Shown: piece after piece, positions 28,359 to 37,849 of the stretch
Layout of the letters: each line of letters opens with the position of its first letter
Position numbering within the stretch: position 1 is the first letter of the stretch
Assembly (NCBI GenBank): GCA_020852475.1
Contig: JADZAR010000078.1
Coordinates: 1 to 42,042 of the forward strand
DNA length: 42,042 bases
Origin: Nitrosomonas sp.
GTDB taxonomy: Bacteria; Pseudomonadota; Gammaproteobacteria; Burkholderiales; Nitrosomonadaceae
Direction of reading: 5' to 3'
Made by a program: the position numbers and the translations under genes
The notes under the pieces: generated by a model
Told to the model about the DNA's origin: nothing
Seen by the model: the letters and a program-made list of their open reading frames with translations, nothing else
The model's database searches: none

Positions 28359-29225
28359 ATGATCAGCAGCATGACCGGTTATGCCACACACACACTGGCG
28401 ACGCCTTATGGCACGCTGAATCTGGAATTGCGCGCCGTCAACAATCGCTACCTTGATATACAGTTACGTTTGCCGGATGATTTCCGCTCCCTGGAACCCA
28501 ATATGCGGGAAACCATTGCCAAAAAACTCAATCGCGGGAAAGTAGAATGCCGGCTAAACTTCATACCGTTGGACAGCTTTGACGAATCCTTGCAGTTAAA
28601 TCAGGCCTTGCTGCATAAACTGCTGGAACTTGACCGCACTGTCCGCGCTTCGCTTCCCGAAGCGCAAAGCCTATCTGTCGCCAGCATACTTAACTGGCCG
28701 GGCATTATCGGCAGCAATACACTGCCGGCGGATGCGCTGCGTGAATGCGCCATGACGTTATTGCTGACGACACTGGAAACCTTTCAGGCGACCCGCAATC
28801 GCGAAGGTGAAAAATTAAAAAGCGTACTGTTGGAACGCCTCAATCAGATACGTCAGCAGCTTGAGCTGGCGGCGCCCCGTATTCCGGCGCTCATTACCGC
28901 TTTCGAAGAAAAACTGAAAACACGCATACAGGAAGCCATTGACAACCTTGATGAAGACCGCATTCGTCAGGAAATTATTTTTTTCGCTTCTAAAATCGAT
29001 ATTGATGAAGAATTATCCCGCCTGAAAACCCACCTGGATGAAGTGGAACATATTCTCAATCAAGGCGGCGCAGTCGGCAAACGGCTTGATTTTCTGATGC
29101 AGGAACTCAACCGCGAAGCCAACACCATCGGCTCCAAATCAGTCGACATCGAAATCTCCAGAACTTCGATGACACTGAAAGTGTTGATCGAACAAATGCG
29201 AGAGCAGGTGCAGAATATAGAGTAA
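28359..29225 (+). CDS. yicC: YicC-family endoribonuclease
   Basis: A 288-residue protein. The start MISSMTGYA and the motif LELRAVNNRYLDIQLRLPD are diagnostic for the YicC/YloC family, as is the C-terminal segment FLMQELNREANTIGSKS. Members have been described as endoribonucleases. The gene often precedes gmk in other genomes; here a REP-like palindrome and the convergent accessory island follow, so the native neighbour has been displaced or was never adjacent. Confidence 0.95.
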   Translation: MISSMTGYATHTLATPYGTLNLELRAVNNRYLDIQLRLPDDFRSLEPNMRETIAKKLNRGKVECRLNFIPLDSFDESLQLNQALLHKLLELDRTVRASLPEAQSLSVASILNWPGIIGSNTLPADALRECAMTLLLTTLETFQATRNREGEKLKSVLLERLNQIRQQLELAAPRIPALITAFEEKLKTRIQEAIDNLDEDRIRQEIIFFASKIDIDEELSRLKTHLDEVEHILNQGGAVGKRLDFLMQELNREANTIGSKSVDIEISRTSMTLKVLIEQMREQVQNIE

Positions 29226-29242: not shown

Positions 29243-29322
29243 GTAGGGTGCCAATAAGCGAAGCGCATTGCACCATAAAAACACACCCATTGGTGCAATG
29301 CCCGTTGGTTATTGCACCCTAC
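29243..29322. repeat. REP-like palindromic element, copy R1
   Basis: An 80-bp imperfect palindrome. The left arm starts GTAGGGTGCCAATAAGCG and runs through CATTGCACCA. The right arm runs TGGTGCAATG through TTATTGCACCCTAC, with about a 15-nt loop. It lies between convergent yicC and FGE gene A, with its right arm 3 bases from the A stop codon, so it could also act as a bidirectional hairpin. Confidence 0.9.
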
Positions 29323-29325
29323 ACC

Positions 29326-30120
29326 TCAGTGACCTCGGGCAAGACGAAAGCCAATATAGCCGCCGCGAAAGGACGGATCGTCGTGAAAGCGGGCAGCAGA
29401 ACGGCAGTACCTGCCGAGGCCGATCCACGAGCCGCCGCGCAGCACGCGCCTGCCTCCATTATCCGGGCCTTGTGGATCAGTTACTGGCCCTGACGGATAA
29501 TCCAGACACCATTCCCACACATTACCGTGCATCTGATACAGCCCCCAGTCATTACAGGGCAATGCCTTCACGTCGACCGTTTGTTTCCGGTATTCACTTT
29601 GACGGCCATTGTTGTAAGGATAATTGCCATCAAAATTGACCAATGACGAATCAATTTGTTCACCCCAGCTAAATGGCGTTGTCGTCCCGGCACGACAGGC
29701 ATATTCCCACTGCGCTTCCGTCGGCAGACACAACTTCAATTCCGCATTCAACACGTTCATTTTGGCAATAAACGCTTGTGCACCCTCCCAACTAACAGTT
29801 TCAACCGGCCGCTCATCACCTTCAAATTCACTTGGATTTTCGTCCATGATCAGCTGCCACAGCCCCTGCGTTACCGACGTATCGGCAATCCAGAAACCTT
29901 TACTCAACGTGACTTCATGCTGCAATTCATCCTCGGAACGTTGCGGTTCATCCTGCGGCGAGCCCATCAAAAACGTCCCCGGTTCGCACCAGCGGAATGC
30001 CTGCCGTACGCCTTTGTAGGTAAACGCCATCCACAGCCCGAATTCGTCCTCGCCCCAGTCAGATGCCCAGGCTTCGGGAAATTCTTCGGGAAATACGGCA
30101 TGTTTGCGAATGTTAATCAT
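29326..30120 (-). CDS. FGE-fold (SUMF1/C-type-lectin-like) protein A
   Basis: A 264-residue protein with one FGE-sulfatase domain over nearly its whole length. Landmarks are the GTFLMGSPQDE motif, ELQHEVTLSKGFWIADTSVT, LKLCLPTEAQWEYACRAGTT, WGLYQMHGNVWEWC, RVLRGGSW and GFRLARGH. The family includes true formylglycine-generating enzymes and many non-catalytic C-type-lectin-fold binders. The first catalytic Cys of real FGEs (GGS-x-x-C) falls at a variable Gly here, so enzyme activity is doubtful. Compared with paralogue C it lacks about four residues in the WCQDWYGDYPSG loop. Its C-terminal 24 codons form a variable region. It has no signal peptide. Confidence 0.9.
   Translation of the reverse strand: MINIRKHAVFPEEFPEAWASDWGEDEFGLWMAFTYKGVRQAFRWCEPGTFLMGSPQDEPQRSEDELQHEVTLSKGFWIADTSVTQGLWQLIMDENPSEFEGDERPVETVSWEGAQAFIAKMNVLNAELKLCLPTEAQWEYACRAGTTTPFSWGEQIDSSLVNFDGNYPYNNGRQSEYRKQTVDVKALPCNDWGLYQMHGNVWEWCLDYPSGPVTDPQGPDNGGRRVLRGGSWIGLGRYCRSAARFHDDPSFRGGYIGFRLARGH
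29353..29424 (-). other. Hypervariable C-terminal segment (DGR-like variable region) of gene A
   Basis: Twenty-four codons between TGG and the GGC-TTT-CGT block. Eleven framework codons are nucleotide-identical to those in genes B and C. Thirteen codons differ, all ending in C or T. Residues read I-G-L at the first three variable positions and end with Y-I. This interpretation comes from comparing the three copies by eye. Confidence 0.6.
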
Positions 30121-30135
30121 GGCTCATTATAAGAT

Positions 30136-30176
30136 CGATAAGTCAAACGCATTGCACCATACAATCACCTGTTGGA
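30136..30176. repeat. Degenerate REP fragment
   Basis: The stretch from GATAAGTCAAACGCATTGC to about GTTGGAGCAAT resembles the inner left arm and loop of the 80-bp REP-like elements (AATAAGCGCAGCGCATTGC in the good copies) but lacks the outer GTAGGGTG and CACCCTAC ends. It lies upstream of gene A. Confidence 0.5.
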
Positions 30177-30225
30177 GCAATACATTCAACCTTTTTCTCA
30201 AAACTGCGACGAATCCACACAACTG

Positions 30226-30300
30226 GTAGGGTGTCAATAAGCGCAGCGCATTGCACCATAAAACCACACCCATTGACGCAATGCCGTTAAAAATATTGCG
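30226..30300. repeat. REP-like palindromic element, copy R2 (decayed right arm)
   Basis: The left arm is well preserved (GTAGGGTGTCAATAAGCGC through CATTGCACCAT). The right arm is degraded after GCAATGCCGTT and lacks the closing CACCCTAC. It lies 8 bases beyond the stop of the RAYT gene. Confidence 0.8.
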
Positions 30301-30308
30301 TTTAATTT

Positions 30309-30839
30309 TCATTCTTTGTAATCCACCGCATCCTCATCACCCCCCGCCCAATCCGAGGGATACATGCCTTCCGCCACCCGTTTGTGAAATGTTGAATGCG
30401 GCCAGTCGGCGACACGCTTGACCAGACTATGTTTCACCGGATTGATATGCACATAATCCATATGCGCATTAAAATCGCGTTCATCGCGGATTAGATGTTC
30501 CCAAAATCGCCGTTGCCAGATACCCCGTTCACCACGGCGAGTGCGGGAAGGTCTGCGCGCCTCATTTTGCGGTAGCCCTTTGGAGAATCCGATTTTAATC
30601 AGTCGCCAGCGTGTTGCAAAATCCGCATCCTGCTGCGGCAGTTCAATCACGCAATGCAGATGATCCGGCAACACCACCCAGCCGTGAATGACAAACGGAT
30701 GCGCTTTCCGTACCACCGAAACCGATTTCCTCAACAGATCGATATGCCGCGTGAGCAAATCATTGCCGTTCCGTTGCAGCAGATTCACCGTAAAGAAATA
30801 TGTCCCGCCCGGATGCCACAGGCGGCGGTAATTCGGCAT
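30309..30839 (-). CDS. REP-associated tyrosine transposase (RAYT, Y1 family)
   Basis: A 176-residue single-strand transposase of the TnpA_REP group. It has the HxH metal motif (LPDHLHC, His60 and His62), the RFWEHLIRDERDFNAHMDY segment with the likely catalytic Tyr129, and the usual VHINPVKHSLV after it. The full-length domain looks intact. RAYTs are associated with excision and spread of REP palindromes, and two of these (R2 and R3) flank the gene in the same orientation. It sits between the 982-aa gene B and FGE gene A, interrupting the run. Activity cannot be judged from sequence. Confidence 0.92.
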   Translation of the reverse strand: MPNYRRLWHPGGTYFFTVNLLQRNGNDLLTRHIDLLRKSVSVVRKAHPFVIHGWVVLPDHLHCVIELPQQDADFATRWRLIKIGFSKGLPQNEARRPSRTRRGERGIWQRRFWEHLIRDERDFNAHMDYVHINPVKHSLVKRVADWPHSTFHKRVAEGMYPSDWAGGDEDAVDYKE

Positions 30840-30873
30840 AAAATCATGCTCCCGAATGGATTAATGTTGGCCT

Positions 30874-30973
30874 GTAGGGTGCCAATAAGCGCAGCGCATT
30901 GCACCGTGCACCATGTACCATGCACCATGTACCAACGTTAACGGTGCAATGCCCGTTGGTTATTGCACCCTAC
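30874..30973. repeat. REP-like palindromic element, copy R3 (expanded loop)
   Basis: A full REP-like palindrome of 100 bp. The outer arms GTAGGGTGCCAATAAGCGC and GGTTATTGCACCCTAC are intact. The loop is longer than in R1 and R4 because of a tandem duplication. Its right arm supplies the stop codon of gene B. Confidence 0.9.
30907..30934. repeat. Perfect 14-bp tandem duplication inside R3
   Basis: TGCACCATGTACCA occurs twice head to tail (30907-30920 and 30921-30934). It accounts for the longer loop of this copy and is absent from R1, R2 and R4. Confidence 0.9.
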
Positions 30974-33908
30974 CCAAAACCCTGAACGGATTGAGCTCAT
31001 GACCTCGGGCAAGACGAAAGCCGTGGCGGCCGCCGCGGCCGGACGGATCATTGCGGTGGCGAAAAGCAGAACGGCAGTACCTGCCGCTGATGCGCCACGA
31101 GCCGCCGCGCAACACGCGCCCGCCACCGGTATCCGGGCCTTGCGGATCAGTCACTGGCTCTGATGGATACTCGCCATACCAGTCCTGACACCATTCCCAT
31201 ACATTGCCATGCATTTCATATAACCCCCAGGCATTCGGCGGATAGCTTTTGACCGCTGCGATTTGTTGCAAGGCGCCTTTGCCCCAGCTACCGTAATCAT
31301 CCCAAGTGCCGAGATAATTGACCTGATCAAGCGCAATGTCAGAGCCAAAATGAAACGCCGTTTCGGTTCCTGCACGGCAAGCATTTTCCCATTCGGCTTC
31401 GGTGGGCAAGCGTAATTTTAATTCAGGATGTTTTTCTTCAATTTGATCGAAAAAATGTTTAATCTCATTCCAACTGATATTTTTAATAGGCTGTTTTTTT
31501 TCTTCAAAGAAAATATTTGGATTCAGATGCTTCACTGCTTCCCATAATTCCTTGGTACAAGCGGTATCCGCTAGCCAGTAGCCTTGCGTCAAATTAACCT
31601 GATGCTGTGTTTCATTGTTAAAACGCCCGACTTCATCTTCCGGCGACCCCATCATGAAACTGTTGGGTTCAATCCAACGGAAGCGCTGGATAACCCCGAC
31701 AATTTCAGCGTCAGCGTAAAGACCGTAATGGTCACGGCCGGCATCAGTTGCCCAATCTGGTTTCAATGTATCCGCTGAAACAGGCAGATAAAACCAGAAA
31801 CCGGGCAGCATCCCTTGTAAAACATCCCACTCGGGTGGATGCCAGTACCAGCGGTAAACTTCGTTCTGTTGATTCAACGATTCAGCGTACAGCCCTTCGC
31901 TACCGCTGCCGATAAATTGCATCCAATCCTGCTTCTGCTGTTGCACTGCCATGACGTCAATGGTGAACCGTTCACGACCGATTTGGAAGGAATGTTGCCC
32001 ACCCGCTGAAAACCGAAATGTCTTTCTTTCAGCTTGCTCTAAATCGAGACTGACAATGCGCTGATGTCCCTGACCATCATCATGAATATGAAAAATCCGT
32101 GTATCTTCCAGCCATAATTTCAGCACCAGTGCACCGGATTGTGAGTGGCTTTCCCAATCATCCGGTGTTGTCAGCGAGACGGTATGCCCTGAAGTCATTA
32201 CCAATTTTTCACCTTTCTGCTGCAACACGTAGGGTTGTCGAATCTGAGTCTGATTGATATACCGTAACACCGTTTCAATCTCGGATTGCGTCATATTCTC
32301 AGGCCATTCCGTTTCGGCCTCGCCTTTCAGCCGGGCATCCCGCATTTTGGCAAACGCCAGAAATGGCAGCCAATAGTCGTGTCTGTGCCGCCAGGTCGGT
32401 GCTTCATGCCGCGCCAGATGGCGCTTTACCCAGCCGTGCAGCAGACTGTTATCTGGATTGTCACGGTAAGTGGCGACCATCTCCTGCATGAATGTTTCCG
32501 TTGCGGCATCCACGTCATCCACGTCATCCGGCAACGTTAATCCAAGCAGCTTCAGGTTGTACATCGCTTCAAAATACAGCTCGTCAGGATATTGCGCGTG
32601 ATAGCGGCCAACCAGTTCTACCAGTTTTTGTTTTTGTTCAAACGACAAATCTGCAATCAGGCATTGTGCATCTGTCAGATAACCTGATTTGCTGTCAGCC
32701 AGCCAACCCCATTCGTCTCCTTCATGAACCACAACCTGATGCCGCCAGATTTCAGTTTCATGCCCGATATCATAACCGTCCGGCACCAAATAACGGATCG
32801 CACGCAGCAAACCACTATCAACACGAACACCGGCAAAACAGTATGACAGCAGTTGATCGATACTCTCTGCATGATTGCGTCTGTCTTTTTCAGGCCGGTA
32901 GTCGCCTTTAACCAGCTTGAAGCGGCTAGCCCGGTCCCACACCACACAATCAAAATATCTCAGCAGGCGGTAGTCAATATTCCGCTCGGCAACCGGCATC
33001 AACACGGTTGCTCGCCAGCCCTGCGCCTTGAGCATTTGTCCAAACGCCAGCCAGGCATACAGTGATTGGCGCGATTGCGATTGCATGGCCAGATCGCTGA
33101 GGATAAGAATCGGCGTACCCGGTTCGGGTAATCGCCACGGCTCGATGATTTCTCGTTGCTGATCATACCGCGCGATAGCACCACCCGGTTCGTCGTAGAT
33201 ATACTGCACATCCAGCCCCTCATTGCCGCGCAGTTGCAGCAGCCGGTCGCGCAGATGCATAAAATCGCGCCGGTACGGAAAATTATCGTCATTGATGTCG
33301 ATCAGTATCCGCGCTTTGGGCGACCAGCCATGCCGTTGCTTGCGCGGAATACGGCGGATCATTTCCCCCTTGGCGACTTGTTTAACCAGCCGCGCCGTAT
33401 CCGGCCCGCGCCCATCGACATGATCCCCCAGCACTTTCTGCAGAAAAGGCAGTACGCGCGGCCAGTCAGCGAGTTCGGTATACAAAGGTTTGACTTGATG
33501 GCATAGCGGTATGCGTGTCGCCGTTTCGGTCAATAGCGTGGGTGATGCCTGGGTAAGCCAGTCCGGAAGACTCAGTTCATCGGTTCCAGTATGGTTTTGC
33601 GTTTGATCGATCGCACGGGATGTAATGCGGTAATAGGAAGAGGAGGTTGCAGTAACGGGTGGCGGATCAATGATAAGATCGCTGGCATTATCTTCGTCTG
33701 TTTTACCTGGATCTGGTTGTATACCAGTATTAGGTTGATCATTATTCCGGCTGGGTTCCGGGTATCTTTCAAACCCGAGTATGTCCGCGATCTGTTCATG
33801 CTGACCGGAATCGAGTGCTGAGAATCCCCATAACAATTCTGCGCGGCTTATGCTGCTTTTTCCGCATACAAACGACTGGTCGATTGGGTCGGTTATTTCA
33901 CTTGTCAT
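30960..33908 (-). CDS. Large vWA-like plus FGE-fold protein B of the conflict-type operon
   Basis: A 982-residue multidomain protein. Residues 1-190 are mixed and contain a low-complexity linker (about 50-95). Residues about 198-325 look like a degenerate von Willebrand A domain: ARILIDINDDNF at the first strand, where a MIDAS DxSxS would be, and TPILILSDLA later, where the MIDAS Asp is expected. Residues about 330-720 are not recognised. Residues about 725-970 are an FGE-fold domain (SFMMGSPEDE, LRLPTEAEWENACRAG, GLYEMHGNVWEWCQDWYG, GFRLARGH) whose end is a variable region. The final 12 residues read into the REP element R3. It overlaps the MoxR gene by 11 bases. The vWA call is tentative. 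Confidence 0.8.
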   Translation of the reverse strand: MTSEITDPIDQSFVCGKSSISRAELLWGFSALDSGQHEQIADILGFERYPEPSRNNDQPNTGIQPDPGKTDEDNASDLIIDPPPVTATSSSYYRITSRAIDQTQNHTGTDELSLPDWLTQASPTLLTETATRIPLCHQVKPLYTELADWPRVLPFLQKVLGDHVDGRGPDTARLVKQVAKGEMIRRIPRKQRHGWSPKARILIDINDDNFPYRRDFMHLRDRLLQLRGNEGLDVQYIYDEPGGAIARYDQQREIIEPWRLPEPGTPILILSDLAMQSQSRQSLYAWLAFGQMLKAQGWRATVLMPVAERNIDYRLLRYFDCVVWDRASRFKLVKGDYRPEKDRRNHAESIDQLLSYCFAGVRVDSGLLRAIRYLVPDGYDIGHETEIWRHQVVVHEGDEWGWLADSKSGYLTDAQCLIADLSFEQKQKLVELVGRYHAQYPDELYFEAMYNLKLLGLTLPDDVDDVDAATETFMQEMVATYRDNPDNSLLHGWVKRHLARHEAPTWRHRHDYWLPFLAFAKMRDARLKGEAETEWPENMTQSEIETVLRYINQTQIRQPYVLQQKGEKLVMTSGHTVSLTTPDDWESHSQSGALVLKLWLEDTRIFHIHDDGQGHQRIVSLDLEQAERKTFRFSAGGQHSFQIGRERFTIDVMAVQQQKQDWMQFIGSGSEGLYAESLNQQNEVYRWYWHPPEWDVLQGMLPGFWFYLPVSADTLKPDWATDAGRDHYGLYADAEIVGVIQRFRWIEPNSFMMGSPEDEVGRFNNETQHQVNLTQGYWLADTACTKELWEAVKHLNPNIFFEEKKQPIKNISWNEIKHFFDQIEEKHPELKLRLPTEAEWENACRAGTETAFHFGSDIALDQVNYLGTWDDYGSWGKGALQQIAAVKSYPPNAWGLYEMHGNVWEWCQDWYGEYPSEPVTDPQGPDTGGGRVLRGGSWRISGRYCRSAFRHRNDPSGRGGRHGFRLARGHELNPFRVLGRVQ
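31023..31094 (-). other. Hypervariable C-terminal segment (DGR-like variable region) of gene B
   Basis: Twenty-four codons aligned without gaps to those of A and C. All 33 bases of the framework codons are identical to both, while the 13 variable codons are mostly different (R-I-S at the start, R-H at the end). The rest of the B domain is much more diverged from A and C, which makes this identity stand out. Confidence 0.6.
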
Positions 33909-34902
33909 GCATCACCGGATATTTGCGCAAAGCAAATTCGCTGATCTGTTCCAGCATGTCCGATTGTTCTTTTTCTGTTTTCGCCAATACCGACAAGGCA
34001 CGCAACATATCAAGATATTCCGCCTGACCCGGTGGCGTCACACCTTTTTCTTTGGCAATTTTGCGGTCTTTGATCAATTGTTCGGCCGCCTTCTTGCGTA
34101 CTTCAGGGAAACATTGATCGCCAAAATGCAGTTGCCCGCGCTCGATCAACAATTTCACCAAATCTGACTCATCTTTGGGCAGATCCAGATTCAACACCAG
34201 GCAACGGCGCACGAATGCGGCAGGCAGTTCGCGTTCCTCGTTGGTTGTGATGATCACCAGCGGCGGGATGTTGGCTTTGCCGCCAATTGTTGTTTTCAGC
34301 CACGGAATTTCAATGGCATTATTGCCGAGAATTTCGAGCAGACTATTAGGCAGCTCGGCATTGGCCTTGTCAATTTCGTCGATCAGGATCACGCTACCAT
34401 CGGCTTGCTGCCAATCGGCTGGCTTCTCCGGCAACGACAATTGATATTGACTGTCTCGATACACATCATAAGCAGTGTTCCAATCCAGCGCCCACCAAAG
34501 CACGCCGGGCGAGATAAAGCGCTTGGTATCGAGCAATGTTTTTTTATCATCGCCATCCTTAATTGTTTGCGCTTCCGCCAGACGGCCGACCGCATCGAAC
34601 TTCCACAACAAATCCTGCCCTTCGGTATGCGCATTGACCACTTCATAAACAAATAAACGCCTCAAAGCCACCGCCGCCGCATGCGCCAACTGGCTTTTGC
34701 CAGTACCCGGTTCTCCGCGCAGCAATGCGGGTCTACGCGCCGCCAAGGCTGTTTTCAGCACATTGATGCTTTTTTCGTCAAACTGGTGCACCGTGGACGG
34801 CCATGAACCATACTTCGGAAGCTTCAGTTCCGTTACCGCGCCAAGTTTGGCGATGTCTGTTTGCAGTCTATCCATCTGATTGCCTGTCACTTCTATTGTC
34901 AT
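33898..34902 (-). CDS. MoxR-type AAA+ ATPase
   Basis: A 334-residue AAA+ ATPase. Walker A is GEPGTGKS at 63-70, Walker B VILIDEIDKAN from 171, sensor 1 is at Asn221 in ITTNEERELPAAFVRRC, and a C-terminal lid region follows. The MoxR-like pattern fits its position between a trypsin-like gene and a vWA-like protein: MoxR ATPases typically remodel partners through vWA proteins. The start is uncertain: GTG 34911, ATG 34902 and ATG 34875 are in frame, and the last gives the smallest overlap with the protease gene. It overlaps gene B by 11 bases. Confidence 0.9.
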   Translation of the reverse strand: MTIEVTGNQMDRLQTDIAKLGAVTELKLPKYGSWPSTVHQFDEKSINVLKTALAARRPALLRGEPGTGKSQLAHAAAVALRRLFVYEVVNAHTEGQDLLWKFDAVGRLAEAQTIKDGDDKKTLLDTKRFISPGVLWWALDWNTAYDVYRDSQYQLSLPEKPADWQQADGSVILIDEIDKANAELPNSLLEILGNNAIEIPWLKTTIGGKANIPPLVIITTNEERELPAAFVRRCLVLNLDLPKDESDLVKLLIERGQLHFGDQCFPEVRKKAAEQLIKDRKIAKEKGVTPPGQAEYLDMLRALSVLAKTEKEQSDMLEQISEFALRKYPVMHDK

Positions 34903-36505
34903 ATCTTTCACACATGTCTAAAAATTTATAAAGCTCAACCATCAAATCCCGGTCAGAAACCATATACGCGGCTTCAACATTGGTGTTATCGAGAATAATA
35001 ATAGGCAACTCAGGAAATGCCCCCTTGAATTTCTGCCGGTTGCTCTTATCCAGCAGAGGCGACTCATTTTTATCCTGCGGGCTGATCGACACAACAAGAT
35101 AACAATTGATCTTTTCCGGGTCATCTGCACAAAGTTCTCTTCGGACATGATCACGTAAATCCCGTCTTGAATAGGATGATTCGTCATATTTTTTGTCAAA
35201 AAAGACACGCCAGATTTTTTTTCCTATTTCATCGATCCAGCTATCATTCTTGCCAATTCCAATCTCCAAATCAAAATGAGAAATAGCATATTGGCCCTGT
35301 ACAGTTGGTCTCTTTTCATGTTTACGAAAACGTGGTGTTGCTTGCATTCTTGCTGCGGACACTAACTCTGCGCTTCCCAAAGTTTCATGTGCAATAGACA
35401 GATTGATTGGTGCAGAGGAATATACAATGTCTCGCCGTAATTGAGTTACATTTTCTTTCTTTAGAACATACAAAGATAAAAGCGAAACTATTTTCTTCAT
35501 ATCCTTAATCAGATATTTCGCTTTTTTAAAATCTTCTTCTCGCTCGAGTTTTTCAAGAGATTTTCGTGTGCAAACTGTGAGGTTTCTAATCATCTTTGCC
35601 GCATTTCCGGGGCATTCGTTAAGCATTCGCTCACACAATGCAACTGAATCCGATAGTAAATCCATATTCCACTGCTGTTTTGTCAGGAAGAGATTAAGTG
35701 TATATTTGATTTGATCTGGTCCTAAACAAGAAATTATCTCGTCTTGGGCACTCACCAGAAATATCTCGGCATCATTGCCTATTTCAAAATCTAATTTTAC
35801 TTCCTTATATGCAAGCAACACTGCTTTGTGCTCTGGGCATGCATCCAGAATTTTATGCATCGGTATCATGTACACTTTCTTATATTTGAAATTTGGCGCA
35901 TTTTCTCCACGCTGACTTGCGAGCATGCCAATAATCGAATAATCATCTTTACTCCATACCGGAGAGCCACTTGCACCCCCAATCGATTCATCGATATTTA
36001 AATCCAATTCAATCAAACCATCCGAGCAACTCGTTATGCTGCTACCTTCTAATAAACTGCCTTTTTCAATAAAAAACCCTTTTGCTGATACTGCTTGATT
36101 AACATAGTTTCCAGATTGATCATATTTCCATTCTGATGCCCACTCATCATCTTCAACAACGCCACCACCATCAGTCAGCATCAGCTTTAGAATTGAAATA
36201 TCGTGAATGTCACCCCAATCAGGTGACGTCAGCTTTGGTTTACTGGCCACCATTTCGGCTTGAAACAAGGCATTTACTTTTTCTGGATAAAAGGGAAAAT
36301 CGATCACTATTCCTGAAATCTCGCCAGTTTCCAGCGTATCAGTTGATTTTCTACCGATACAGTCAGCGACCACATGGTTACAGGTGATCAACCAGGGGTA
36401 AACAGAAATAAAACCAGTGCCAACGGTCTTTCCACGCTGTAATTTGCCGCTAGTAACAGTAGCCTTACTGATTCTTGCAACCCATTTATTCAGCAACTCA
36501 CTCAT
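34868..36505 (-). CDS. Trypsin-like serine protease with C-terminal extension
   Basis: A 545-residue protein. The N-terminal about 225 residues form a chymotrypsin-fold protease with a complete triad: His44 in TCNHVVAD, Asp102 in GDIHDISILKL, and Ser179 in GGASGSPVW. There is no signal peptide, so it acts in the cytoplasm. The rest (about 230-545) has a helical middle with charged residues (LEKLEREEDFKKAKYL) and an alpha/beta-looking end (CYLVVSISPQ, LPIIILDNTN) that I cannot assign. The upstream Trypco1 gene ends two bases before its ATG. Codon use is visibly more A/T-rich than in flanking housekeeping genes, consistent with transfer. Confidence 0.88.
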   Translation of the reverse strand: MSELLNKWVARISKATVTSGKLQRGKTVGTGFISVYPWLITCNHVVADCIGRKSTDTLETGEISGIVIDFPFYPEKVNALFQAEMVASKPKLTSPDWGDIHDISILKLMLTDGGGVVEDDEWASEWKYDQSGNYVNQAVSAKGFFIEKGSLLEGSSITSCSDGLIELDLNIDESIGGASGSPVWSKDDYSIIGMLASQRGENAPNFKYKKVYMIPMHKILDACPEHKAVLLAYKEVKLDFEIGNDAEIFLVSAQDEIISCLGPDQIKYTLNLFLTKQQWNMDLLSDSVALCERMLNECPGNAAKMIRNLTVCTRKSLEKLEREEDFKKAKYLIKDMKKIVSLLSLYVLKKENVTQLRRDIVYSSAPINLSIAHETLGSAELVSAARMQATPRFRKHEKRPTVQGQYAISHFDLEIGIGKNDSWIDEIGKKIWRVFFDKKYDESSYSRRDLRDHVRRELCADDPEKINCYLVVSISPQDKNESPLLDKSNRQKFKGAFPELPIIILDNTNVEAAYMVSDRDLMVELYKFLDMCERYDNRSDRQSDG

Positions 36506-36507
36506 GG

Positions 36508-36825
36508 TCAGGATTTTTTATGCCATTTGAGTGTTACTTTCATGGTCGCTTCGGTATCTGCCGATGCTAAAATCACCCCGGTTCTTGCGCCAAACTTGAT
36601 ACCCATTTCAAGCGAAATTTCCGAGGGATTGTTTAAATCATTCAAGGTTTCCATCACCGCATTCGCAATTGGTTTTAACCCTTTTAAAGCTGTTTCAAAT
36701 TTACCGCCTTCTATTAAACCATCGTCGTCATGACTTATCTCGTCATCAATTTCAGATGAAATAGTTTCTGCTTCCACATAAACTGATTCACCATTTATTT
36801 CATATTTTATGTATTGTTTACCCAC
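36508..36825 (-). CDS. Trypsin-co-occurring domain 1 (Trypco1) protein
   Basis: A 105-residue small protein matching the Trypco1 family pattern: an N-terminal strand MGKQYIKYEINGESVYVEAE, an acidic linker, a helix ETALKGLKPIANAVMETLND, then SEISLEMGIKFGARTGVILA and a final strand TMKVTLKWHK. The family is defined by sitting next to trypsin-like proteases in predicted biological-conflict operons, exactly the situation here. It starts at GTG with AGGGA as ribosome site and is followed two bases later by the protease gene. It is probably a partner or regulator of the protease; function is inferred from context. Confidence 0.85.
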   Translation of the reverse strand: MGKQYIKYEINGESVYVEAETISSEIDDEISHDDDGLIEGGKFETALKGLKPIANAVMETLNDLNNPSEISLEMGIKFGARTGVILASADTEATMKVTLKWHKKS

Positions 36826-36950
36826 GATGTAATCCCTAAACCAAATGAATATTCATCAGATTACTCCAAATAATAACTGAATGTATCTTATGCACAATAA
36901 TTGTTAACCAGCACTCCGCTGCCACCTCCCTGCGCTCCGCCGCGCGACAG

Positions 36951-37030
36951 GTAGGGTGCGAATAAGCGCAGCGCATTGCACCATGGAGTCACGTGCAATG
37001 GTGTAATGCCCGTTGGTTATTGCACCCTAC
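36951..37030. repeat. REP-like palindromic element, copy R4
   Basis: An 80-bp copy with both outer arms (GTAGGGTGCGAATAAGCGC and GGTTATTGCACCCTAC) and a loop different from R1. Its right arm is 3 bases from the stop of FGE gene C, and the sequence across this junction (ACCTCAGTGACCTCGGGC) is identical to that at gene A and R1. Confidence 0.9.
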
Positions 37031-37033
37031 ACC

Positions 37034-37849
37034 TCAGTGACCTCGGGCAAGACGGAAACCGAGGAAGTCGAGGCGGCGGGACGGATCGTTGAAGTAGCGA
37101 TTAGCAGAACGGCAATGCCTGCCGCCGTGGAGCCACGAGCCGCCACGCAACACGCGGTTGCCTCCTACGTTATCCGGGCCTTGTGGATCAGTCACTGGCC
37201 CTGACGGGTAATCGCCATACCGATCCCGACTCCATTCCAACACATTGCCATGCATCTGGTACAATCCCCAGTCATTGCACGGCAAAGCTTTTACATCAAC
37301 GGTTTGTTGTCGATTTTCGCTTTTGCTGCCATTATTGTAGGGATAATCACCATTAAAATTAACCAACGACGAATCGATCTGACCACCCCAGCTAAAAGGT
37401 GTTGTGGTTCCTGCCCGACAGGCGTATTCCCACTGTGCTTCGGTCGGCAGGCAAAGCTTTAATTCCGCCTTCAGCCCGTTCATTTTATCGATAAACGCTT
37501 GCGCGTCATCCCAGCTGACATTTTCAACCGGCCGCTCTTCATCCTGAAAATGACTTGGATTTTTATAATCATCGCTTATTACAACCGTCCACAAAGCCTG
37601 TGTCACCGGTGTATCCGCAATCCAGAACCCCTTGGTTAAGGTCACTTCATGCTGCAATTCATCACCATAACGCTCCGACTCATTCTCCGGCGAACCCATC
37701 AAAAACGTCCCCGGTTCGCACCAGCGGAATGCCTGTCGCACGCCTTTGTAGGTAAACGCCATCCATAGCCCGTATTCATCCTTGCCCCAGCCGGACGCCC
37801 AGGCTTCTGGAAATTCTTCAGGTAATACAGTGTGTTTTCGGATATGCAC
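37034..37849 (-). CDS. FGE-fold (SUMF1/C-type-lectin-like) protein C
   Basis: A 271-residue paralogue of protein A, starting at GTG. It shares the whole domain with A: the EEFPEAWASGWG opening, FRWCEPGTFLMGSPENE, LKLCLPTEAQWEYACRAGTT, WGLYQMHGNVLEWSRDRYGD and GFRLARGH. Compared with family norms, the WEWCQDW motif has become LEWSRDR. The first catalytic Cys of genuine FGEs is replaced by a variable position, so a binding role is more likely than formylglycine formation. It is upstream of the Trypco1 gene, 208 bases away with R4 between, and may be the first gene of the island. Confidence 0.9.
   Translation of the reverse strand: MHIRKHTVLPEEFPEAWASGWGKDEYGLWMAFTYKGVRQAFRWCEPGTFLMGSPENESERYGDELQHEVTLTKGFWIADTPVTQALWTVVISDDYKNPSHFQDEERPVENVSWDDAQAFIDKMNGLKAELKLCLPTEAQWEYACRAGTTTPFSWGGQIDSSLVNFNGDYPYNNGSKSENRQQTVDVKALPCNDWGLYQMHGNVLEWSRDRYGDYPSGPVTDPQGPDNVGGNRVLRGGSWLHGGRHCRSANRYFNDPSRRLDFLGFRLARGH
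37061..37132 (-). other. Hypervariable C-terminal segment (DGR-like variable region) of gene C
   Basis: Twenty-four codons in register with A and B. Framework codons are identical at all 33 bases. Variable codons include AAT and AAC, the forms an unmutated A-rich template would give, and begin L-H-G and end F-L. Downstream, GGT-TTC differs silently from GGC-TTT in A and B. Confidence 0.6.

Follow-up and report, generated by a model that had tools for sequence, protein, structure and literature searches.

Three bodies of work describe systems close to the one studied here. The first are the MoxR 'ternary conflict' loci of multicellular bacteria diversified by diversity-generating retroelements (DGRs), with DGR 8 of Thiohalocapsa PB-PSB1 (clade 5A) as the relevant case (Dore et al. 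2024, PMC10907252). Excerpts of that paper name Nitrosomonas species among the organisms with multiple related DGRs, report that the reverse transcriptase (RT) is replaced by arrays resembling miniature inverted-repeat transposable elements (MITE-like arrays) at DGR 4 and 5, and describe clade 5A targets with N-terminal extensions that lack predicted domains and stand in place of vWA. In this work, we studied a stretch of 42,042 nucleotides of Nitrosomonas sp. (contig JADZAR010000078.1 of assembly GCA_020852475.1; hereafter the window), in which three genes of the FGE/C-type-lectin fold, targets A, B and C, end in DGR-like variable regions (VRs).

Targets separated from their RT are also known from cyanobacteria. 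As far as the consulted sections of Vallota-Eastman et al. 2020 (PMC7517822) go, remote or orphan variable proteins such as all3226 include a VR paralogue with no RT close by, nine variable proteins have IS200/IS605 transposases, whose mechanism involves a single-stranded intermediate, in their vicinity, and the authors suggest that the machinery is removed once a good variant has been selected. The third precedent is the DGR of Bordetella phage BPP-1, which, according to the portion of Guo et al. 2011 (PMC3240598) at hand, needs a hairpin or cruciform downstream of the VR for efficient homing. Judging from these partial texts, the literature already contains DGR sensors in MoxR systems, MITE-like arrays standing in for an RT or template, IS200/IS605 elements close to variable proteins and a VR paralogue lacking an RT, and orphaning by mobile elements has published precedent (PMC10907252, PMC7517822).

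We propose that the three window genes are DGR-written sensors whose writer was later lost, with palindromes and a transposase of another mobile family now standing in place of the DGR core and of the element behind the VRs, so that the sensor set would now be fixed. We put the probability of this reading at roughly 0.75.

Variable regions and target genes

The VRs lie on the minus strand at 29353-29424 (A), 31023-31094 (B) and 37061-37132 (C). On re-reading, their 11 framework codons were equal at 33/33 bases, the differences were confined to 13 NNC/NNT codons, and the third bases of the 39 variable codons comprised 31 C and 8 T, exactly as an earlier, sequence-only reading of this DNA had reported. 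Target A (29326..30120, minus strand) is a short FGE/C-type-lectin-fold protein of 264 amino acids, and target C (37034..37849, minus strand) a short FGE-fold protein of 271 amino acids (PF03781, E=1.5e-46). Target B (30960..33908, minus strand; 982 amino acids) carries a C-terminal FGE domain (PF03781, residues 746-968) behind an N-terminal extension of about 740 amino acids that matched no Pfam family above the cut-off. All three VRs stand at the C-terminal end of the fold, as expected of DGR targets. The best sequence and structure match of target A was TvpA, the variable protein 1 of Treponema denticola (PDB 2y3c), which has the FGE/C-type-lectin fold; the fold is indeed that of DGR variable proteins.

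It had also been argued that the silent identity of the three VRs exceeds what shared ancestry would preserve, B being strongly diverged from A and C. Outside the VR, B shares about 50% identity with the other two. When only codons encoding the same amino acid were compared, each pair had a higher share of identical codons inside the VR core (RVLRGGSW..LARGH) than elsewhere: 27/29 versus 49/90 for A-B (Fisher p=1e-4), 22/26 versus 100/165 for A-C (p=0.026) and 22/27 versus 52/97 for B-C (p=0.014). Thus, the silent-site argument holds.

The description of the framework as frozen survived only in part. It is identical in A, B and C, but varies in the wider family. Among 116 homologues of A, mean entropy was 3.17 bits in the 13 variable columns, 0.90 in the 11 framework columns and 0.84 over the 232 residues before the VR; framework positions that hold no A in the window vary as well (S250, 2.14 bits; R252, 1.01 bits). 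In the codon and third-base comparison, which covered the 31 VRs of this class with exactly 33 residues, the AGG codon read AGG in 20, GGG in five and GGA in two (plus four single others), and the GAT codon read GAT in 18, GTT in five, GGT in three and GCT in one (again with four single others). These changes fall mostly at the A, as expected of a mutable template A, which leaves GGA, AAG, GAG and AAT unexplained.

The assembly to which the window belongs (G000; genomes are given below by our G numbers) is a draft of 223 contigs with 99.5% completeness. It holds a fourth VR of the class, D, on another contig (C61:21576-21620). A fifth orphan VR, of another DGR class (PDNVRAS type), lies at C125:1501-2079 (locus L009). 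Against three congener templates it differs at 11-16 of 25-30 A and at 8-9 of 69-74 other bases, and a palindrome half of the type described below (two mismatches) lies about 235 bp past the domain match.

A template and reverse transcriptase in a congener

When G000 and 40 relatives were searched with the framework pattern, we found four sites in G000 and further sites in three congeners. In Nitrosomonas sp. D5_Bin_16 (G021), the DGR locus (NZ_JAKFWH010000060.1) includes the template AAC AAC AAC GGC AGG AAC TGC CGT TCT GCT AAC CGC AAT CAC AAC GAT CCG TCG AAC CGC AAC AAC AAC ATC. It sits between two target genes, adjoining a 341-amino-acid RT and an HRDC frame, and its framework equals that of the window at 32/33 bases. 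The best PDB sequence match of this RT was 8ub7 (E=4.6e-43), labelled only as Reverse transcriptase, which we take to be the RT of the BPP-1 DGR. The motif GxxxSQ is a mark of DGR RTs.

Set against the G021 template, the window VRs differ chiefly at its adenines. Changes affect 18/26 A and 7/73 other bases in VR A (p=1e-8 for A-specific change), 18/26 and 8/73 in VR B (p=4e-8) and 16/26 and 7/73 in VR C (p=5e-7); in VR D the counts are 12/26 and 7/73. Comparison with the seven templates of other classes gave 18-32 non-A mismatches. Genus-wide, 15 VRs placed on nine templates differ at 226/412 template A and at 9/1,073 other bases (p ~1e-137), a count that omits a tenth template, that of the second DGR of G021, for which no listed VR has equal length. 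Adenine mutagenesis is common to the window VRs and the BPP-1 DGR as described in the portion of PMC3240598 at hand.

These results support the writing of A, B and C by a DGR with adenine mutagenesis, and the A-rich template that the sequence-only reading had predicted does exist beside a DGR-like RT, in a congener. They also bear on another view, in which the three genes are ordinary paralogues under diversifying selection and gene conversion keeps the framework identical. In its favour, paralogues with FGE domains are numerous and the framework is conserved in protein sequence, but this view predicts neither change at template adenines nor an A-rich template beside a congener's RT, so we consider it highly improbable.

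Several other DGR classes with RT and template occur in the genus. One of these, with template NNNPQNLRSANRNRNNTD, was seen at L040 (G005), L110 (G021), L111 (G008) and L108 (G083); G021 thus carries two DGR classes.

The missing writer

In G000, neither RVT_1 (at E 0.001; a single first-look candidate failed on scoring) nor the G021 RT had a match. When the framework patterns were allowed up to 3 mismatches, just the four VRs were hit, and 1,761 bases of the G021 locus, used as query, returned VR and 3'-element matches only. The assembly therefore yields targets of a DGR, with neither the RT nor the template of a complete element; this sets it apart from the loci of Dore et al., as far as the excerpts of PMC10907252 describe them. 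The earlier reading had expected a DGR in this genome, proposed a search for the template and RT, and held that the lack of both would refute a DGR origin. For the draft assembly this lack is formally the case, while both parts were found in G021, and we read the result as loss of the machine rather than as a non-DGR origin.

The alternative is that a DGR is still present and active in trans, with its RT and template on an unassembled or unbinned piece and with A, B, C and D as remote targets. With 223 contigs this could be so, as repeats such as templates and VRs interrupt assemblies, and in G073 the RT contig does break inside the apparent template. The nine member sequences of the protein A cluster P0001 could be VR variants, and VR D retains its 3' element. 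However, the assembly is 99.5% complete and yielded neither an RT match nor core DNA, the syntenic place of the core in the window is contiguous and occupied by a transposase gene, and the 3' element is mostly or wholly gone at three of the four VRs. Moreover, G005, a genome in one contig of 3,737,323 bases, carries four VRs of the class, yet neither a template of the class nor core DNA; its single RT matches that of G021 at no more than 35% and adjoins its own template of another class. Orphaning thus occurs in the genus and absence is not merely an effect of draft assembly. On balance, an active writer in trans seems unlikely.

The framework pattern was present in 16/85 genomes of the genus. 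By VR type, targets of the CRSA class occur in 14 genomes, namely 12 plus G076 and G084, whose target frames are broken and which the locus survey did not catch. An RT with at least 75% identity to that of G021 was found in two of these 14, G021 and G073; the RT of G090 reaches 61% and goes with a template of another type. The VRs of the orphan targets in G076 (L127) and G084 (L129) are frameshifted or stopped, and these genes are seemingly decaying.

A transposase and palindromes in place of the DGR core

In the DGR-bearing loci (G021, G090 C82, G100 and, up to its contig end, G073), the gene order is target, HRDC, RT, template repeat (TR), target. The interval between B and A of the window is contiguous and, where kin hold HRDC-RT-TR, contains a repetitive extragenic palindrome (REP), a gene for a REP-associated tyrosine transposase (RAYT) and another REP. 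RAYTs are kin of IS200/IS605 elements acting on single-stranded DNA and hairpins, and REPs carry a GTAG tag.

The RAYT gene occupies 30309..30839 on the minus strand (NF047646, 200.6 bits; cut-off 80), with a REP half between it and target A (30226..30256, minus strand). GTAG-tagged REP pairs of the form GTAGGGTGC...GCACCCTAC lie, all on the minus strand, directly downstream of VR A (29243..29322; REPIN-like, folding at z=-6.0), of VR B (30874..30973; overlapping the stop codon of B) and of VR C (36951..37030), and start 18, 37 and 18 nt after GFRL, respectively. Gene and palindromes together identify a RAYT/REP element. In the REP-pair spacer behind B there is a tandem repeat (30903-30934; 2.3 copies of a 14-bp unit). 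A gene at 28359-29225, presumably yicC-like, converges on target A and ends no more than 20 bp from the REP pair behind A.

Truncated HRDC frames next to REP/RAYT in related genomes look like scars. The frame is open in G073 (165 amino acids, with the HRDC domain at residues 79-143). In G075 it ends after 72 codons, ahead of where the HRDC domain would lie, with a GTAG-tagged REP and a RAYT immediately behind it; the G053 frame breaks off after about 28 codons, where a degenerate REP pair stands; and in G018 (C48) a 42-codon remnant is followed by a RAYT, with other REP-like palindromes in between. Since the cut points differ, repeated loss is suggested. In the portions of PMC7517822 seen, no truncated core gene is joined to an element, in contrast to these Nitrosomonas loci, where truncated HRDC frames abut or precede REP/RAYT. 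The replacing element likewise differs from the MITE-like arrays of the PMC10907252 excerpts, being a RAYT with GTAG-tagged REP pairs that are also found at VR 3' ends. Among the 20 papers listed, of 24 matching a literature search that combined DGR with RAYT or REPIN, no title or abstract start joins both; PMC8008677 and PMC8934634, as far as searched, contain both terms, with one RAYT occurrence each, and a term search of the main text of Roux et al. 2021 (PMC8144416) counted 0 occurrences of RAYT and 0 of Nitrosomonas.

RAYTs are concentrated near the VRs. Counting matches of at least 170 bits in 16 genomes, 8/23 have a VR no more than 2 kb away (binomial p ~2e-12 if the most generous background is used), although some VR positions were read by hand and the copies of the window, G090, G050 and G075 are perhaps non-independent. 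The unit of RAYT plus A-type gene is found again in G090 and G050. REP-like palindromes begin no more than 40 nt behind 17/34 VRs, and 19/57 REP-like matches in 23 loci (348 kb) fall within 80 nt behind a VR, an enrichment biased upwards by search patterns derived from REPs beside VRs. In G021, none of six REP pattern matches is on the contig holding its VRs of this class. The idea that the palindrome behind the VRs is a dedicated DGR hairpin was rejected, as the same REP type also occurs at RAYTs. In G090 (C58; L114 5370-5430), the end of an FGE gene has lost its whole VR, so that RVLRGG runs directly into FRLARGH; a REP half and a RAYT follow a short distance on.

A conserved element behind the variable regions

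We compared the flanks of 34 class VRs, excluding the G021 template and the loci L102, L103, L112, L118 and L124, which have other VR types. A GC-rich conserved element of about 73 nt was present with both halves behind 21/34 VRs; it does not stand behind the G021 template. Across 85 genomes we counted 23 copies of its left half, and VR-bearing genomes account for 22. The sole left-half match outside the genomes that the pattern of this class hits, with one mismatch, is G022:C157:5981-6003.

Behind A and B of the window the element was not found. After the REP pair of C, a 14-nt remnant (36932..36945, minus strand; GCGCGGCGGAGCGC) matches the G015 copy exactly, and 0/300 shuffles were as good. 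When folded, the G064 copy beat all 200 shuffles (z -3.5), and 6/200 shuffles were as good as the exact G021 copy (z -2.6). Since BPP-1 needs a hairpin behind its VR, the element is a candidate for such a role. In the part of PMC3240598 consulted, that hairpin has an 8-bp stem and a 4-nt loop and serves a phage receptor-binding target; the structure suggested here is longer and less certain.

Neighbouring genes

Between B and C lie three further genes on the minus strand: a MoxR-like AAA ATPase (33898..34911; AAA_5, E=7.8e-14; bpMoxR of MoxR-vWA ternary systems, E=1.3e-5, below the cut-off), a trypsin-like peptidase with a C-terminal extension (34868..36505; Trypsin_2, E=0.0017, below the family cut-off) and an adapter with Trypsin-co-occurring domain 1 (Trypco1; 36508..36825; PF19493, E=6e-21). 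The ATPase, peptidase and Trypco adapter expected of a MoxR ternary conflict system are all there, the peptidase with its score below the Pfam cut-off. Pfam scans of the seven cluster proteins, repeated for B and the peptidase, gave no vWA or VMAP family, and none of the window proteins submitted to PADLOC and PHROGs received a system name. With one long and two short targets beside these genes, the cluster matches the DGR conflict loci of Dore et al. 2024, as portrayed in the excerpts. The targets are probably ligand-binding sensors of this MoxR/trypsin-like peptidase/Trypco1 system.

Observations that do not fit

Several observations speak against the proposed history. At some loci the core is gone and the supposed agent is missing: the HRDC frame of G080 is cut after about nine codons and the core lost, yet the break carries no REP, and both core and RAYT are missing from the G064 locus, which has two VRs. 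The reference locus itself may not be fully working, for the HRDC frame of G021 (L035) is split by an in-frame stop after 35 codons and may be impaired or misassembled there, though the RT and template look intact. One VR of that same locus has a REP behind it, so the presence of a REP alone cannot rule out a DGR. The left REP junction is common to A and C, whose VRs nevertheless differ; writing may have gone on after the REP arrived, or REPs may have landed twice at a hot spot. The retention of the 3' element by VR D has been mentioned; that copy folds unremarkably (31/200 shuffles as good, z -1.1), and covariation in the element is weak, with compensatory change in 3/16 pairs and a term of -0.41 (19/21 copies aligned). 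Its structure is only suggested.

Also puzzling are the third bases of the variable codons. A differs from B and from C at 6/13 of them, and B from C at 2/13, with no framework difference. A single template for A, B and C without later silent change is therefore ruled out, and the pattern calls for at least two templates or for silent changes acquired later; the caveat of the sequence-only reading, which asked for several templates or later drift, stands. Between A and B, 6/13 third-base changes face 0/11 silent framework changes (p=0.016), which neither one template nor plain drift explains, and the excess in A remains partly unexplained. DGR copying was considered as the source of the C/T mix and rejected: C>T was seen in only 2/433 template C, both at a single shared GCG/GTG site of G068. 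The G073 template, which a contig end interrupts, starts ATC AAC AAC GGC AGG AAC TGC and thus differs at its first codon from G021 (AAC), so templates vary within the genus. As a hint, ATC at codon 1 fits A, and B (CGC) and D (TAC) need AAC, from which the ATC of A could also derive.

In other genomes, groups of VRs with 0/13 third-base and 0-1 framework differences were found (three VRs in G005, four in G073, three in G075, two in G064 and two in G021), but they were selected by that very agreement. The remaining VRs of G005, G073 and G075 differ at 3-7/13 third bases; G053 (three VRs, 3-5) and G080 (one pair, 3) contain no agreeing group, and there the framework differs too. The larger groups, those of G005, G073 and G075, point to writing in place. 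This bears on the possibility that the targets were diversified elsewhere and acquired by transfer, so that this lineage never had a writer, as the patchy occurrence of VR-bearing genes (16/85 genomes) and the recurring unit in G090 and G050 would allow. The order long target-RAYT-short target nevertheless parallels long target-HRDC-RT-TR-short target, and a truncated HRDC frame survives at this place in G075. We regard transfer as more doubtful still than a writer in trans.

Discussion

Under the reading we prefer, loss of the writer after the sensors were written, an A-rich template repeat would have been copied by an error-prone RT, and the cDNA would have replaced the 3' end of each FGE-fold gene, randomising the codons that are AAY in the template. 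Selection could then have retained a useful set of variants. REP/RAYT elements would have landed in the DGR interval and at the VR ends; between B and A, a RAYT and REP palindromes would have replaced the HRDC-RT-TR interval, and with it the writer, and REP pairs may have replaced most or all of the conserved element behind A, B and C. As the target genes are still open, the cell would carry a fixed sensor set, written at random in the past. The loss may have been selected or neutral.

A bolder extension, which we offer tentatively and think less likely than not to be right, is that the 3' ends of DGR targets are preferred landing sites of REP/RAYT elements, and that mobile hairpins, in taking the place of the writer and of the 3' element of the VRs, switch hypermutation off, or even serve as substitute hairpins and so choose which genes a DGR can write. 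If so, genomes would cycle through writing, freezing and rewriting of an immune-like sensor set.

If the loss of the writer is real, a DGR-diversified set of sensors can outlive the machine that wrote it, and a specific mobile agent with checkable junctions can be named. Two ideas would become testable: that random repertoires are selected and then locked, as the partial text of PMC7517822 proposes, and that hairpin-seeking transposons exploit DNA opened during DGR homing. Nitrosomonas would be a convenient comparative set for both, as DGR-bearing and orphaned loci occur within this one genus.

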